DNA from: Pseudomonas sp. MYb185
GTDB taxonomy: Bacteria > Pseudomonadota > Gammaproteobacteria > Pseudomonadales > Pseudomonadaceae
Length of the DNA: 64,000 nt
Assembly (NCBI RefSeq): GCF_002979975.1
Contig: NZ_PCQD01000004.1
Span: 130,486 to 194,485, forward strand
Reading direction: 5' to 3'
The notes beneath the pieces are model-generated. The model had not been told where the DNA came from, did not search any database, and saw only the letters and a program-made list of their open reading frames with translations. This document shows, in pieces, positions 17,634-26,097 of this stretch (the first letter of the stretch is position 1; each line of letters opens with the position of its first letter). Made by a program: the position numbers and the translations under genes.

Positions 17634-19073
17634 ATGAAGACTGCCTTGCCAGATGGCCTGATCGTTGTGGCCAAAGCTGATTGTCCCACCTGCCGGCTGG
17701 CCGAGCCGCTGCTCGCCGAGCTGAGCGCGCAGGCCGGGCCCTTGACGGTCTATGTGCAGGACTCCTCCGAATATGCCGCTGATGTGTCTGGCACCCTCCA
17801 TGACAGCACTCTGGAACACTCCTACCGCCTGGGTATCGAGTTCGTGCCGACGCTGATCCGCGTCGAGAATGGGATCGAGGTGCAACGCACCTATGGCTGG
17901 CACAAGGAAGACTGGCGACAGATCTCCAGGGTGGCGACGCTGGGTGAGGACTTGCCGGTGATGCGCCCGGGTTGTGGGTCGAAGACCCTGGAACCGGGTA
18001 TTGCCGAGGAGCTGGAGCTGGCTTTCGGTGACGTCCGCCTGCAGTCCCGGGAGATCGACTTTTCCGCCGTCGACGATCCCTTCGAGGCCTGTTTCGATGG
18101 GGGTTGGAGCGATGGCCTGCCGGTGGTGCCGCCGACGCCGGTGCGGGTGCTGCGCATGCTCAAGGGTACCCAGCGCAAGCCGGATGAGGTGGTTGGGTTG
18201 ATGCCGCCGGATCTGGTGCCCTGCACAGTGGAGAAGGTGGCGATCAATGCGGTGCTGGCTGGCTGCAAGCCGGAATACATGCCGGTGCTGCTGGCCGCGC
18301 TGGAGGCGGCGCTGACCGATGAGTTCGGTCTGCACGGGCTGATCTGCACGACCATGTTCGGTAGCCCGATGATCATCGTCAATGGTCCGGTGGCAAAGGC
18401 CATCGGCATGAATTCGGGCGTCAATGCACTGGGGCAGGGCAATCGCGCCAATGCCACCATTGGCCGGGCGCTGCAGCTGATCATTCGCAATGTCGGCGGT
18501 GGTCGCCCCGGCGAGATCGATCGTGCCACCCTGGGTAATCCCGGCAAATACAGTTTCTGCTTCGCCGAAGCCGAGGACAGTGATTGGCTGTCGTTGGCGC
18601 AGGTGCGGGGCATCGAGGCTGGACGTTCGGCAGTGACGCTGTTCCCCGGAGAGGGGGTGCAGGGCATCGTCGATCAGAAGTCCCGCGATCCCGACTCCCT
18701 GGCGCGTTCCTTTGCCTTGTCGCTGCGCACCGTCGATCACGCCAAGCTGGCCATGGCGGGCGACGCGGTGCTGGTTGTATCGCCCGAGCATGCGCGGGTG
18801 TTCATCGAGGCAGGCTGGTCCAAGCAGCGCCTGGGTGAGGAGCTGGACAGGCTGTTGCTGGCGCCGGGCAAGGATCTGGTGGCCGGTGCCGGAGGCATTA
18901 CCGAGGGTATTCCCGAACGTTTCAAGGATATGCAGGTGCCCAAGTTCCGACCTGGCGGCCTGCTTATCGTCCGGGCCGGCGGTACCGCCGGCCTGTTTTC
19001 CGCCATCATTGCCGGCTGGGCTGCGTCCGGCCCGGTCGGCTCGTCTGCGGTAACACGTGAGGTAAACACATGA
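17634..19073 (+). CDS. Thioredoxin-fold fusion protein, partner of the UGSC selenoprotein
   Basis: The 479-residue product has two parts. Residues about 8-105 look like a thioredoxin fold with an active-site CPTC (Cys17, Cys20; VVAKADCPTCRLAE) and a cis-Pro region FVPTLIRVENG. From about residue 155 a second conserved region begins (GWSDGLPVVPPTPVRVLRML), followed by VEKVAINAVLAGCKPEYMPV and NATIGRALQLIIRNVGG. I recall this second region as an uncharacterised family that occurs beside UGSC proteins in other bacteria, but I cannot name its reaction. The gene overlaps the UGSC gene by 4 nt (ATGA), so the two are translated together. A thiol/selenol exchange partnership is inferred. AGGG precedes ATG 17634 by 8 nt. 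Confidence 0.75.
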   Translation: MKTALPDGLIVVAKADCPTCRLAEPLLAELSAQAGPLTVYVQDSSEYAADVSGTLHDSTLEHSYRLGIEFVPTLIRVENGIEVQRTYGWHKEDWRQISRVATLGEDLPVMRPGCGSKTLEPGIAEELELAFGDVRLQSREIDFSAVDDPFEACFDGGWSDGLPVVPPTPVRVLRMLKGTQRKPDEVVGLMPPDLVPCTVEKVAINAVLAGCKPEYMPVLLAALEAALTDEFGLHGLICTTMFGSPMIIVNGPVAKAIGMNSGVNALGQGNRANATIGRALQLIIRNVGGGRPGEIDRATLGNPGKYSFCFAEAEDSDWLSLAQVRGIEAGRSAVTLFPGEGVQGIVDQKSRDPDSLARSFALSLRTVDHAKLAMAGDAVLVVSPEHARVFIEAGWSKQRLGEELDRLLLAPGKDLVAGAGGITEGIPERFKDMQVPKFRPGGLLIVRAGGTAGLFSAIIAGWAASGPVGSSAVTREVNT

Positions 19074-19609
19074 ACGAGAACAGGGTGCTGGACCCGACGG
19101 CCGAGCAAGCGCCGGCCCAGCGGGCGCGTCTGCCCCGGCCGACGTCGGTAGAGGGCAGGGTGGTTGGCCTGCTGGATATATCCAAGCCGCGTGGCGATGT
19201 CTTCCTCGACCGTATCGAGGAGCAATTGGCTGCCATGGGTATCCAGGTCAAGCGTTACGCCAAGCCGACCTTTACCCGGATCGCCCCGACCGAACTCAAG
19301 CAGCGAATGGCCGCCGAGGTCGATCTGCTGGTGGAAGGGCTGGCCGACTGAGGATCTTGCACGTCGTGCTGTATGCATGACATCGCAGATCTGGAGTCTC
19401 GCCAGATTCCGGGAGTAGGTGTTGCCTCCAGCGAATTCATCGAGGCAGCGGCGCTGCAGTCGCGGGCGTTGGGCTTTGATCCGGCGATGGTCTTCGTGCC
19501 GCATCCGATTCAGGATCGCACCGATGAGGAAATGCGCGCCCTGGCCGATGCCGCGCTGGCGGATATCCTGCGCCTGCTCTGTGCAGAGGAGGGTGACACC
19601 AGCGGATGA
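19070..19609 (+). CDS. UGSC-family selenoprotein (UGA at codon 94 read as selenocysteine)
   Basis: The frame opens at ATG 19070 and meets UGA at 19349-19351, codon 94. It continues in the same frame without another stop to UGA 19607-19609, giving 179 residues. The residues around the UGA read EGLAD-U-GSCTSCCMHD, so Sec94 is followed by Gly95, Ser96, Cys97, Cys100, Cys101 and His103. This is the Sec-Gly-Ser-Cys signature that names the UGSC (seleno)protein family, whose function is unknown to me. The downstream part (QIPGVGVASSEFIEAAALQS, VFVPHP) is conserved-looking and not degenerate. A SECIS-like hairpin follows the UGA, and selA, selB and selC follow in order. A pseudogene or two separate genes is unlikely: no start with a ribosome site precedes the second half, and the motif itself spans the UGA. 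Confidence 0.92.
19349..19391 (+). promoter_or_regulatory. Bacterial SECIS element directing UGA recoding
   Basis: Directly after UGA (19349-19351) the mRNA can form a two-part hairpin. The lower stem is GAUCU (19353-19357) with AGAUC (19387-19391), plus GC/GC above it. The upper stem is GUCGUGC (19363-19369) with GCAUGAC (19375-19381), including one G-U pair. The apical loop is UGUAU (19370-19374). Counting the U of UGA as 1, the loop holds G23 and U24, the positions I recall as essential for SelB binding in E. coli fdhF. SelB bound here would deliver Sec-tRNA to the ribosome. Confidence 0.8.
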
Positions 19610-19658: not shown

Positions 19659-21044
19659 ATGAAGCAGCCGACAAGCCCGCCGCATCCCCCATCGGTTGAC
19701 CGCATACTGGCCTGGCCGTTGATGCAGGCACTGGTGGCCAGTCATGGCCGGGTACTGGTGCTCGATTGCCTGCGCGAAGCCCTGGAATTGTGGCGGGCCG
19801 GCTCGGTGAGTGACGAAGCAGGCCTTACCCAGGCGGTGCAGCAGCGTGTCGAGCGGATCCTCGCTCCGTCGATGCAGCCGGTGCATAACCTCACCGGCAC
19901 CGTTCTGCACACCAATCTGGGCCGGGCGCCCCTGCCACCAGAAGCGGTCGAGGCGATGGTTGCCGTGGCGCTGGGTGCGAGCAATCTCGAGTTCGATCTG
20001 CAGACCGGACTGCGCGGCGATCGTGACGACCATGTCGAGCAATGGATCTGCCGGCTGACCGGTGCCGAGGCGGCGACTGTGGTCAACAACAACGCCGCAG
20101 CGGTGCTGCTGGTGCTCAATGCGCTGGCGCAGCGCCGCGAGGTAGTGGTATCCCGTGGCGAACTGATCGAGATCGGCGGCTCGTTCCGCCTGCCCGATAT
20201 CATGGCCCGCGCCGGGTGCAGGCTGCGTGAGGTGGGGGCCACCAACCGTACCCACATCCACGATTACGTCGAGGCCATTGGCCCGCGTACCGCGTTACTG
20301 CTCAAGGCGCACACCAGCAATTTCAGCATCGAAGGCTTTACCAAGGCTCTGAGCGAGGCGCAGTTGGCGGACATCGCTCATGAGCACGGGTTGCCGCTGG
20401 TGGTGGACCTGGGCAGTGGTTCGCTGATCGATATGCAGACGCTGGGCCTGCCCGCCGAACCGGTGGTGCGCCGGGTACTGGAACAGGGGGCGGATATCGT
20501 CACCTTCAGCGGCGACAAGCTGCTCGGTGGCCCCCAGGCCGGCATCATTGCCGGTCGGGCGGACCTGGTAGCGCGCATTCGCAAGAGCCCGCTCAAGCGG
20601 GCGTTGCGGTGCGACAAGATGACCCTCGCCGCCCTGGAGGCGGTGCTGCGTCTGTATGCCGACCCTGACACCTTGGTGCAGAAGGTCCCGACCCTGCGCT
20701 TGCTCACTCGCAGCACCGACGATATCCGCCGTACCGCTGAGGCGCTGGTGCCGGCGTTGGCCACGTGGACTGGTAGCGACTTCAGCACAGATGTATGTGA
20801 GGTCAGCAGCCAGATCGGATCCGGTTCGCTGCCGCTGGAGCGGTTGCCCAGCGCGGCCCTGCGACTGCGCAGTAACAGCCCCAACAAGCGTCAGCGTAGC
20901 CGCCACCTGCGTGAGCTCGCCGAGCGTTTGCGCCGATTGCCGCAACCCGTGATAGGGCGTATCGCCGATGACAGCCTGCTGCTCGACTGCCGTTGCGTGG
21001 AGCACCCGGCAGTGCTGCGAGGGCAGTGGGAAACCGGGCCATGA
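19659..21044 (+). CDS. selA: L-seryl-tRNA(Sec) selenium transferase
   Basis: The 461-residue PLP enzyme converts Ser-tRNA(Sec) to Sec-tRNA(Sec) using selenophosphate. Visible family features are [20 protein letters not shown] (N-terminal core), [29 protein letters not shown] and [13 protein letters not shown], whose Lys is the PLP-binding residue. The length is normal for the family. AAAAGG lies 7 nt before ATG 19659. The gene is 49 nt downstream of the UGSC gene and overlaps selB by 4 nt. The selenophosphate synthetase gene selD is not in this window and must lie elsewhere. Confidence 0.97.
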
Positions 21045-22900
21045 TCATTGCCACCGCTGGACATGTGGATCATGGCAAGACCTCGCTGGTCAGGGCATTG
21101 ACTGGCATCGACACTGATCAACTGGCCGAGGAGAAACGCCGCGGCCTGACCATCGAGCTGGGGTTTGCCTGGATCGGCACTGAAGCAGGCCAGGCGCTGG
21201 GCTTCGTGGATGTACCGGGGCATGAGCGCTTCATCGCCACCATGCTGGCCGGTGTCGCGGCGGTGGATGCGGCGCTGCTGGTGGTGGCGGCGGATGATAG
21301 TGTAATGCCGCAAACCCGCGAACACCTGAGCATATTGCGGCTGCTCGGAGTAGAGCGGCTGATCATCGTCTTCAGCCGTTGTGATCTGGTAGAGCCGACC
21401 AGGTTGAAGACGGTACAGGTCGAGCTGAGCGAGCTGCTGGTGCAGCAGGGCTGGGCATCACCGCCGATATTCTGCGTATCTGCTGTCACCGGCGAAGGAA
21501 TACCCGTGCTGCGGGAGTACCTGTTCGGGCTGGCCCGGGATCACCGCCTGAGCGCTGCTGGCGGTCATGCGCGGCTGATGGTGGATCGCCGCTTCAGTGT
21601 GCCGGGGGCTGGCTGCGTGGTAACCGGCACCCTGGTCAGCGGCAGTCTGCAGGTAGGTCAGCGCTTGCTGGCCGAAGGACGAGAGCTGCGTGTGCGCAGC
21701 CTGCAGATCGCGGGTCGGGAAGCGACGCGGGCGGAGGCTGGGCAACGCTGTGCAGTGAATCTGGCAGGTGCGGTGGATACTCATCCGCGCCGGGGCGACT
21801 GGCTGACGGCAGTAGCCTTCGGCGCCTCCGAGCGGCTGGATGTAGAGCTGGTGCAATTGGAGGGCAGTCGCTGGCATCGCGGACTGCTGCAGCTGCATCT
21901 GGGCACGGCGGTGCATTCCGTGCGGGTGGTCGTGCTGGAACAAGGGCGGCCGGCGCTGGCTCAGCTGATGCTGGAGCAGCCAGTGCAGGCCGTATGGGGA
22001 GAGCGCTTCATCATCCGCGACCCGGCGGCCAATACCACGCTGGGTGGTGGGCGGGTGCTGGACCCGCAGGGCCTGCGGCGTGGGCGTAGCAAGTCGCAGC
22101 GCCTGGCGCTGCTGCGCGAGTGGCAGCAGGCAACGACGGTTCAGCAGGCGCTGGTGGCGGCACTGCGATGGCAGCCGGTGGAGCTAAGCGGCTTCGCCCG
22201 GCGTTTCAACCTGACCGAAGCCGAATTGACAGCATTGCTCGGTACGGTCAACTGCGAAGTCCTGCGCGGGGCGGAGCAGGCATGGGCGCTGCTGCCAGAG
22301 CAAATGGAAACCGCCTGGGCTGTCCTGTTTGAGCGCCTGACGGCCTGGCATGCTGCGCACCCTGAGCAGCTGGGGCCAGGCGAGGGCGAGCTGAGGCTGG
22401 CTAGCTGTCTGCAGTTGCCATTGGAGTTGAGCAGTTGCCTGCTGGGCCGCTGGTTGCGCGAAGGTCGACTGCAGCGTCAGGCCTGGGCCTGGTACCTGCC
22501 GGGGCACCGGCAGCGATTGCTGGAGGAGGACCAGGCGCTGCTTGCCAGGATCAGCGAGCTATTGCTGAGGGGGGGCCTGCGCCCGCCGATCATTGGCGAA
22601 CTGAGCCAGGCACTGGAGATCGAACTGGAGCCGCTGCGGGCCTTTCTGCAGCGCATGCAGCGGGCGGGCGAGCTGATTGCGGTCGCGCCGAACCGCTATT
22701 ATCTGCCATCCCAGGTCGATGGCCTGCTGGCGGTGGCGAAACGGTTGGCGGCGGGCTCCTGCTCTGGTAGTTTCACTGCCGCCGAGTACCGGGATGCGTC
22801 CGGTATCGGGCGCAACCTGACCATTCAGGTATTGCACTATCTCGACCGGGCGGGCATGACCCGTTTCGTACGGCAACAACGTTTCCTTACCACTGGCTGA
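21041..22900 (+). CDS. selB: Selenocysteine-specific translation elongation factor
   Basis: ATG 21041 overlaps the selA stop (ATGA). The first residues are [20 protein letters not shown]; an upstream in-frame extension would lack the typical SelB N-terminus. The 619-residue protein has the GTPase G1 motif (GHVDHGKTS, residues 7-15), G3 DVPGHE, and an FSRCD segment in place of NKCD. An EF-Tu-like barrel region follows ([21 protein letters not shown]). Winged-helix repeats at the C-terminus bind the SECIS loop ([38 protein letters not shown]). It brings Sec-tRNA(Sec) to UGA codons marked by a SECIS. selC begins 15 nt downstream. Confidence 0.97.
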
Positions 22901-22914
22901 CGCCGGTGGACAAG

Positions 22915-23009
22915 GGAAGGACATCGTCCCCGGTGGGGCGCCCGGACTTCAACTCCGGTGAGATGCGCAACGCGTGTCTGGTGGGTTCGACTCCCATGTC
23001 CTTCCGCCA
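22915..23009 (+). tRNA. selC: tRNA-Sec (anticodon TCA)
   Basis: This 95-nt tRNA is longer than ordinary tRNAs. The 8-bp acceptor GGAAGGAC pairs with GTCCTTCC and is followed by GCCA. The anticodon arm CCGGACTTCAACTCCGG carries anticodon TCA. It has a long variable arm and T-arm GGGTTCGACTCCC. It lies directly behind selB, and its 3' end is 8 nt from the stop codon of the convergent decarboxylase gene. Confidence 0.96.
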
Positions 23010-25845: not shown

Positions 25846-25920
25846 CTGCGGTATGTCGAGCCCGATCATTGCTGAGTTGCTTGATAGGGTTTGATTGGAG
25901 TTTGTTGAGGTACCGAGTAG

Positions 25921-26032
25921 GGCGGTGATGAGCCGCAACAGTTGCAGAACGCGCACCCCGCCATCCATGGCGCTCGTCTACGGCCGTCCCTGGCCGCAGA
26001 CGGTTCTGCAACTGTTGCGGCTCATCACCGCC
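25921..26032. repeat. Long-stem hairpin element, copy 1
   Basis: A perfect 30-bp inverted repeat (25921-25950 with 26003-26032) encloses a 52-nt interior (25951-26002). The interior is identical in the copies at 48270-48379 and 57183-57294. It holds the palindrome CGCCATCCATGGCG (25959-25972) and a second hairpin at 25975-26002 with one mismatch, so a three-way junction can form. The stem is conserved only in its inner about 9 bp (TTGCAGAAC). It lies between two convergent genes. Confidence 0.92.
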
Positions 26033-26097
26033 TGCGAGTTTGGAGTGGTGCGCAGTCGTGCAGCCACCGCATCGGGTTTACCGGCTGAGGTGTTGTC

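Follow-up and report, generated by a model that had tools for sequence, protein, structure and literature searches.

The question raised by this locus is whether a reading frame of Pseudomonas sp. MYb185 that contains an in-frame UGA encodes a selenoprotein, and which reaction such a protein could carry out. The DNA analyzed, here called the window, is a stretch of 64,000 nucleotides. The initial annotation had assigned the gene to the UGSC family from a frame that starts at 19070 and continues past the UGA for 85 codons, and re-reading led to the same result. It was also right that standard gene calling (table 11) splits the gene, into pieces of 93 and 78 amino acids, and that the motif around the UGA reads U94-G-S-C97-T-S-C100-C101-M-H103-D104. 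The UGSC family is already known, with no assigned function in the literature searched, which left out most subscription papers and in which no functional study of UGSC was found. The relevant features of the gene are the following.

19070..19609, plus strand: UGSC gene for a predicted selenoprotein, 179 amino acids with Sec94; ATG at 19070, final TGA at 19607-19609
19349..19351, plus strand: UGA codon for Sec94 (codon 94), in-frame TGA, a TGA in 81/81 loci
19358-19360, plus strand: Cys97, invariant column in 49 members
19367-19369, plus strand: Cys100, tied to the thioredoxin-fused clade
19363..19381, plus strand: bacterial SECIS-like hairpin with a 7-bp stem and a 5-nt loop UGUAU (19370-19374), the loop starting 18 nt past the UGA

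An open stretch of 85 codons in GC-rich DNA is by itself weak evidence for recoding, and the case for selenocysteine at the UGA is carried by homology, RNA and context. The protein scores 145.6 bits with the family model NF041046 and 140.7 bits with PF24696 (cut-offs 125 and 25), and the homology check suggested by the initial annotation was run: the family matches extend across the UGA (residues 29-170 and 5-171). Compared to other members of NF041046/PF24696 the match is full-length with Sec in the motif, and the protein itself is no different. Sec or Cys had been anticipated at position 94 of the homologues, and this column is invariant in 49 diverse UGSC members, picked by hand from 134 profile hits. 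A TGA at the Sec94 codon together with an intact downstream frame was found in 81 out of 81 UGSC loci, a set biased to close relatives because one of the six search peptides (residues 100-107) sat directly behind the Sec. A survey of the genus found UGSC in 27 out of 37 genomes, with one in-frame TGA in 27/27. Cys takes the place of Sec in 6 out of 138 UGSC matches and in four out of five plasmid copies.

The gene call that ends at the UGA could also be taken at face value, in which case either the product ends at 93 residues or the gene has decayed. The preserved TGA and downstream frame in the 81 loci, the Cys that other homologues have at this position, the constraint and covariation of the hairpin and the Sec machinery inside the cassette (both described below) argue so strongly against a real stop that we give it next to no credence. 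The region 19070-19609 is thus confirmed as a UGSC family gene for a predicted selenoprotein.

The hairpin behind the UGA folds with −12.7 kcal/mol, with a z of only −1.25 compared to shuffles in this single-sequence fold of the window. The bacterial SECIS model, as far as it is laid out in the accessible part of PMC13188914, comprises a loop of 3-9 nt, a stem of 4-16 bp, a spacing of 16-37 nt, a G within the first two loop positions and an MFE <= −7.5; the hairpin agrees with this model. Its codons show the lowest synonymous variation among 164 seven-codon segments (34 loci), with a mean pairwise synonymous difference of 0.109 compared to 0.557 elsewhere. As the stem hardly varies in this close set, covariation is uninformative there, and 38 sequences including distant paralogues were used instead and compared with 500 shuffles. 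In counts that are inflated by relatedness among the sequences, paired cells made up 86.5% of the stem (shuffled mean 78.2), both sides were changed in 13 stem cells (shuffled 3.2), and the stem covariation score was 0.218 (shuffled 0.107); none of the 500 shuffles was as high in any of the three. At the position adjoining the loop, 30 sequences have C-G and eight have G-C, and none has a broken pair. Two of the five measures were unremarkable: three pairs had both sides changed compared to 2.2 (169 out of 500 shuffles as high), and seven further pair types were found compared to 5.1 (43 out of 500). Sliding the stem by −3 columns also yields 14 cells changed on both sides, but only 36.8% of the cells are then paired. 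RNAalifold predicted no pairs on the 38-sequence paralogue alignment.

The UGSC gene is part of a compact cassette of five genes, LARGE, UGSC, selA, selB and the tRNA-Sec gene, in which the UGSC ATG overlaps the stop of its partner LARGE (ATGA) and the selB ATG overlaps the stop of selA.

17634..19073, plus strand: partner gene LARGE, 479 amino acids, with a thioredoxin-like N-terminus (about residues 1-105) and a domain of about 350 residues
17682..17693, plus strand: CPTC (Cys17/Cys20) of the LARGE thioredoxin domain, read from the sequence; CxTC in the alignment consensus
18021-19070, plus strand: C-terminal domain of LARGE, about 350 residues, without a Pfam family
19659..21044, plus strand: selA (TIGR00474, 580.3 bits)
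21041..22900, plus strand: selB (TIGR00475, 351.7 bits for the open reading frame from 20993; Met at 21041)
22915..23009, plus strand: selC, tRNA-Sec with anticodon UCA (ARAGORN; Rfam RF01852, 78.5 bits, 22915-23005)

The selD gene lies outside the cassette, elsewhere in the genome, and has no in-frame stop; SelA, SelB, SelD and tRNA-Sec form a complete set in this genome. A tRNA-Sec is present in 37 of the 49 loci scanned out of the 81. Searches of this genome for other selenoproteins found no formate dehydrogenase (TIGR01553) and no match to GrdA or GrdB (PF04723, PF07355), and its one molybdopterin oxidoreductase has no in-frame stop. As a side observation, four loci (L012, L014, L050, L063) have selB after UGSC and no match to selA, and in L046 the order is reversed, with selB before selA.

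The G+C content of the cassette is 64-66% (five 1-kb steps, 18-23 kb), that of the upstream flank 58-61% (11-18 kb) and that of the downstream flank, up to 27 kb, 62-63%. Among the 81 loci the flanking genes as a set are common only to L002, a Halopseudomonas record with a 96% identical UGSC, which indicates that the cassette rather than its flanks is the common unit. The LuxR, RPE65 and decarboxylase genes and three further flanking genes recur in L002, and no counterpart of the OprD or the HGSNAT-type gene was seen in any of the 81 loci; a weak match to RPE65 (30%) occurs once, in L052, and one to HIBADH (29%) in L050. The window's own flanks yield no substrate clue. A TwoAYGGAY RNA-like match was noted at 25917-26036 on the minus strand (36.5 bits, under the gathering score of 43).

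The company of selA, selB and selC could mean that UGSC supports selenium handling, for example delivery to SelA or SelD. SelB scores above the cut-off in 28 out of the 37 genus genomes, namely the 27 with UGSC and one that is 79% complete, which fits this possibility. The existence of Cys forms of UGSC, the presence of 12 UGSC matches in a single genome and the many loci without sel genes nearby (some of these loci are short) speak against such a role, and we regard it as very unlikely.

Which residues could take part in catalysis was judged from the 49 members. The only invariant columns are U/C94, G95 and C97, while P9, S96, D104, F123 and G135 are conserved at >=90%. The initial annotation had envisaged a reactive centre of Sec94 with Cys97 and Cys100/Cys101. 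The Sec94-Cys97 redox pair stands, since its two positions and G95 are the sole invariant columns, and the two further cysteines turned out to be limited to a clade: Cys100 occurs in 94 out of 94 pairs with a thioredoxin-fused partner compared to 10 out of 37 pairs without a thioredoxin domain, and many relatives have Ser at position 101. Similarly, of the His and Asp pointed out behind the motif, Asp104 holds and His103 is not conserved family-wide.

The partner lies <=400 bases from UGSC on the same strand in 131 out of the 138 UGSC matches. Three of the seven matches without an adjacent LARGE are at contig ends (L021, L075, L077) and one is near such an end (L225); in the other exceptions LARGE is fragmented (L034), 2.1 kb upstream (L073) or 2.3 kb away on the opposite strand (L133). 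The C-terminal domain of the window protein has no match to a Pfam family up to E 1; across 47 rows DGLP is invariant in it, and Cys211, GNRAN..IGRA and Cys309 are nearly so. The N-terminus resembles a thioredoxin/TlpA-type domain with its CPTC, but is fused to the LARGE domain.

This fusion is found in 94 out of the 131 LARGE-UGSC pairs. In a tree of the LARGE domain (97 rows, thinned from 131) the fused forms group in a single clade (62 rows, support 100/98) in which only L054 is unfused, and the correlation between the fusion and Cys100 therefore counts as one event, not many. A separate thioredoxin reductase gene, trxB, is present in three of the five plasmid loci opened, in the order trxB-trxA-LARGE-UGSC in Arthrobacter, LARGE-UGSC-trxB in Roseovarius, and upstream of LARGE with two genes between in Variovorax. 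In total trxB is near four out of 47 loci without a detected fusion, a number that includes the five plasmid loci and the seven loci without an adjacent partner, compared to none of 93 fused loci; outside the plasmid loci it is near one out of 42 unfused loci (L136, other strand, about 2 kb off).

UxxC selenoproteins are usually assumed to be thiol redox or antioxidant proteins. This gives rise to the main rival of the reductase proposed below, namely that UGSC is a general thiol redox/antioxidant protein (peroxidase or disulfide reductase) with the partner as its reducing arm. The UxxC motif and the thioredoxin domain on LARGE agree with this, and the accessible parts of two surveys group UGSC with proteins of thioredoxin-like fold (PMC13188914, PMC2398784). 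The AF2 model of UGSC (pLDDT 94.1) shows a parallel-strand flavodoxin/receiver-like fold instead, different from that of the thioredoxin/TlpA-type domain, and none of the 50 matches listed in each of two structure searches was a thioredoxin; the thioredoxin fold called likely in the accessible part of PMC2398784 is not supported by this model, though a thioredoxin match beyond those listed may exist. The 12 matches in one genome, several of them beside substrate receptors or CoA enzymes, also suit catabolism better, so that we consider an antioxidant role unlikely.

A different relationship emerges from profile comparison. The 49 UGSC members aligned by hhalign with 12 GrdB/PrdB-type sequences at 95.15% (E 2.9e-8), with Sec placed on Sec, where E-values refer to one comparison and not to a library search. 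PrdB-type sequences alone gave 84.2% (E 7.4e-6) and GrdB-type sequences alone a weak 42.4% (E 2.6e-4); the controls, class I fumarase and LARGE with its thioredoxin domain, reached 0.7% and 0.4%. Individual members match the models of GrdB (28 out of 49, best 1.1e-4), GrdF (22 out of 49) and PrdB (5 out of 49), and the window UGSC scores 14.8 bits with the GrdB model TIGR01917, below its cut-off of 602.2. Shared with GrdB, GrdF, GrdH and PrdB are the Sec after a strand at the start of a helix, the next helix, a GIP-type strand and the region of an HP motif. The UGSC-TSC sequence also has the UxxCxxC form described for GrdB in the accessible part of PMC13188914, while UxxC is common to the wider group. 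Judged by these profiles, UGSC and the Sec domain of the glycine and D-proline reductases are related.

The cassette is not glycine reductase itself, because neither GrdA nor GrdB has a match in this genome. The part in common with the GrdB/PrdB systems is the Sec domain only: UGSC has no detected GrdE-type partner, and LARGE brings a C-terminal domain without a Pfam match. The second subunit is not demonstrably homologous, since LARGE has no profile similarity to the GrdE type; a GrdE-type origin was rejected after hhalign against one GrdE-type protein gave 0.4%, and PF09338 had no hit on the window LARGE. When the profiles of UGSC and LARGE were searched by sequence against solved structures, only weak matches came back (best E 0.37 and 0.22). 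Apart from this, in four loci (L137-L140) a GrdB-like gene places Sec in the motif UGTGTRSG, without the UxxC cysteine, and that of L137 adjoins a PF09338 GrdE-type gene.

We lean towards the view that UGSC and LARGE form a two-subunit, thioredoxin-driven reductase, with a Sec domain related to that of glycine and D-proline reductase and bond cleavage by a selenolate. From the computed profile similarity, partner, fusion and trxB proximity we infer a complex, this bond cleavage, an electron route and a substrate of the organic-acid type. The substrate would bind between LARGE and UGSC, and the selenolate of Sec94, positioned at the N-terminal end of the helix that follows strand three, would attack it and expel a leaving group. 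Cys97 could then resolve the selenium intermediate as a Se-S bond, and Cys100 might hand the oxidation on to the CPTC of the thioredoxin domain fused to LARGE, for which a separate thioredoxin/thioredoxin reductase may substitute in other clades. As its second subunit is different and GrdA and GrdB have no match here, UGSC-LARGE may work, in its presumed chemistry and substrate, like the protein B step of glycine/proline reductases without belonging to that complex.

According to the accessible part of PMC10298544, glycine reductase receives its electrons from thioredoxin and releases acetyl phosphate that is passed on to acetate kinase, and D-proline reductase splits a C-N bond with no acyl phosphate involved. 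UGSC-LARGE has a thioredoxin link as well. A GrdB-like system has been proposed for C-F bond cleavage of fluoroacetate (PMC10838667, accessible part).

The roles of the two subunits could also be reversed, with LARGE as the true catabolic enzyme (lyase or hydratase) and UGSC only maintaining or activating it. LARGE is the larger subunit, has the near-invariant Cys211 and Cys309, and matched class I fumarase marginally in Foldseek (E 1.5e-3 to 2.5e-3, TM about 0.21). A fumarase origin was rejected, with hhalign against class I fumarase giving 0.2%; moreover, Sec/Cys94 and Cys97 are invariant in the 49 UGSC members, and Sec is kept although Cys forms exist. These observations make such a reversal of roles quite improbable.

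A further hint towards the substrate of the proposed reductase arises from the neighbours of UGSC relatives, among which several UGSC paralogues sit among genes of organic-acid catabolism. The genome of L053, a Comamonadaceae MAG, has 12 UGSC matches over the cut-off (weakest 30.8 bits), 11 of them with an in-frame TGA, and several adjoin TctC-type receptors (loci L117-L127). We note that this is an unusually large set of paralogous selenoproteins. From 171 open reading frames, 30 operon-like neighbours of unfused paralogues were chosen and Pfam-scanned. They comprise five TctC receptors, one DctP, two CoA transferases, an ATP-grasp type acyl-CoA ligase, an acyl-CoA dehydrogenase, an aldehyde dehydrogenase, two P450s, two zinc alcohol dehydrogenases, three IclR/LysR regulators and a mixed rest (e.g. 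QueC, PGA_cap and a fumarase), three being without a family. Acyl-CoA dehydrogenases recur beside some fused-clade loci. The neighbours of actinobacterial fused-clade loci (DNA-glycosylase-type, an LPG-synthase-type membrane protein, hydrolases) say nothing of catabolism. Out of 396 genomes drawn from the phylum of genome G046, 29 have a UGSC match, in 27 over the cut-off.

Acetate kinase (PF00871) directly follows UGSC in seven acidimicrobiial-type loci (L070, L074, L075, L076, L077, L079, L080), an arrangement to be expected should the reaction yield an acyl phosphate. These loci belong to a single lineage, with 82-89% identity to the copy in L079; L078, from the same clade, has no acetate kinase, and in L047 a distant kinase lies 4 kb off on the other strand. 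The kinase could instead serve glycine reductase, because all three kinase-locus genomes searched (G047, G050, G051) also hold GrdA and full-length GrdB. The same holds for G052, the genome of L078, which has no kinase at the locus, and GrdA is absent from the other eight genomes searched, this genome among them. The single lineage of the kinase, the weak comparison with GrdB alone, the single fusion event and the rarity of trxB linkage outside the plasmid records opened are points against the reading as a reductase.

Beyond the initial annotation, our analysis adds the partner LARGE, the Sec machinery encoded after UGSC and the relationship to glycine/proline reductase. The partner, the fused or adjacent thioredoxin and this relationship make of UGSC a candidate two-subunit enzyme that can be tested, and the search for its substrates can start from the genes of catabolism beside the paralogues. 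We also put forward, more tentatively and as slightly less likely than not, that UGSC-LARGE represents an unrecognised class of thioredoxin-coupled enzymes for reductive bond cleavage by a selenolate, located largely outside the anaerobic amino-acid fermenters from which chemistry of this type is known, with many paralogues for different organic acids and a portable Sec machinery.

Further observations concern the distribution of the family. In aquatic metagenomes UGSC ranks among the more abundant families of selenoproteins, with 255 sequences according to the accessible part of PMC2398784 (Table 2). A paper from 2017, in its accessible part, describes a tRNA-Sec with anticodon CUA in Geodermatophilaceae and lists UGSC-motif selenoproteins among the predictions for these genomes (PMC5330540). 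Finally, genes annotated as phosphosulfolactate synthase lie near UGSC-LARGE in L232 and L233, on plasmids of the distant hosts Natrinema and Arthrobacter, and could possibly represent a substrate clue.
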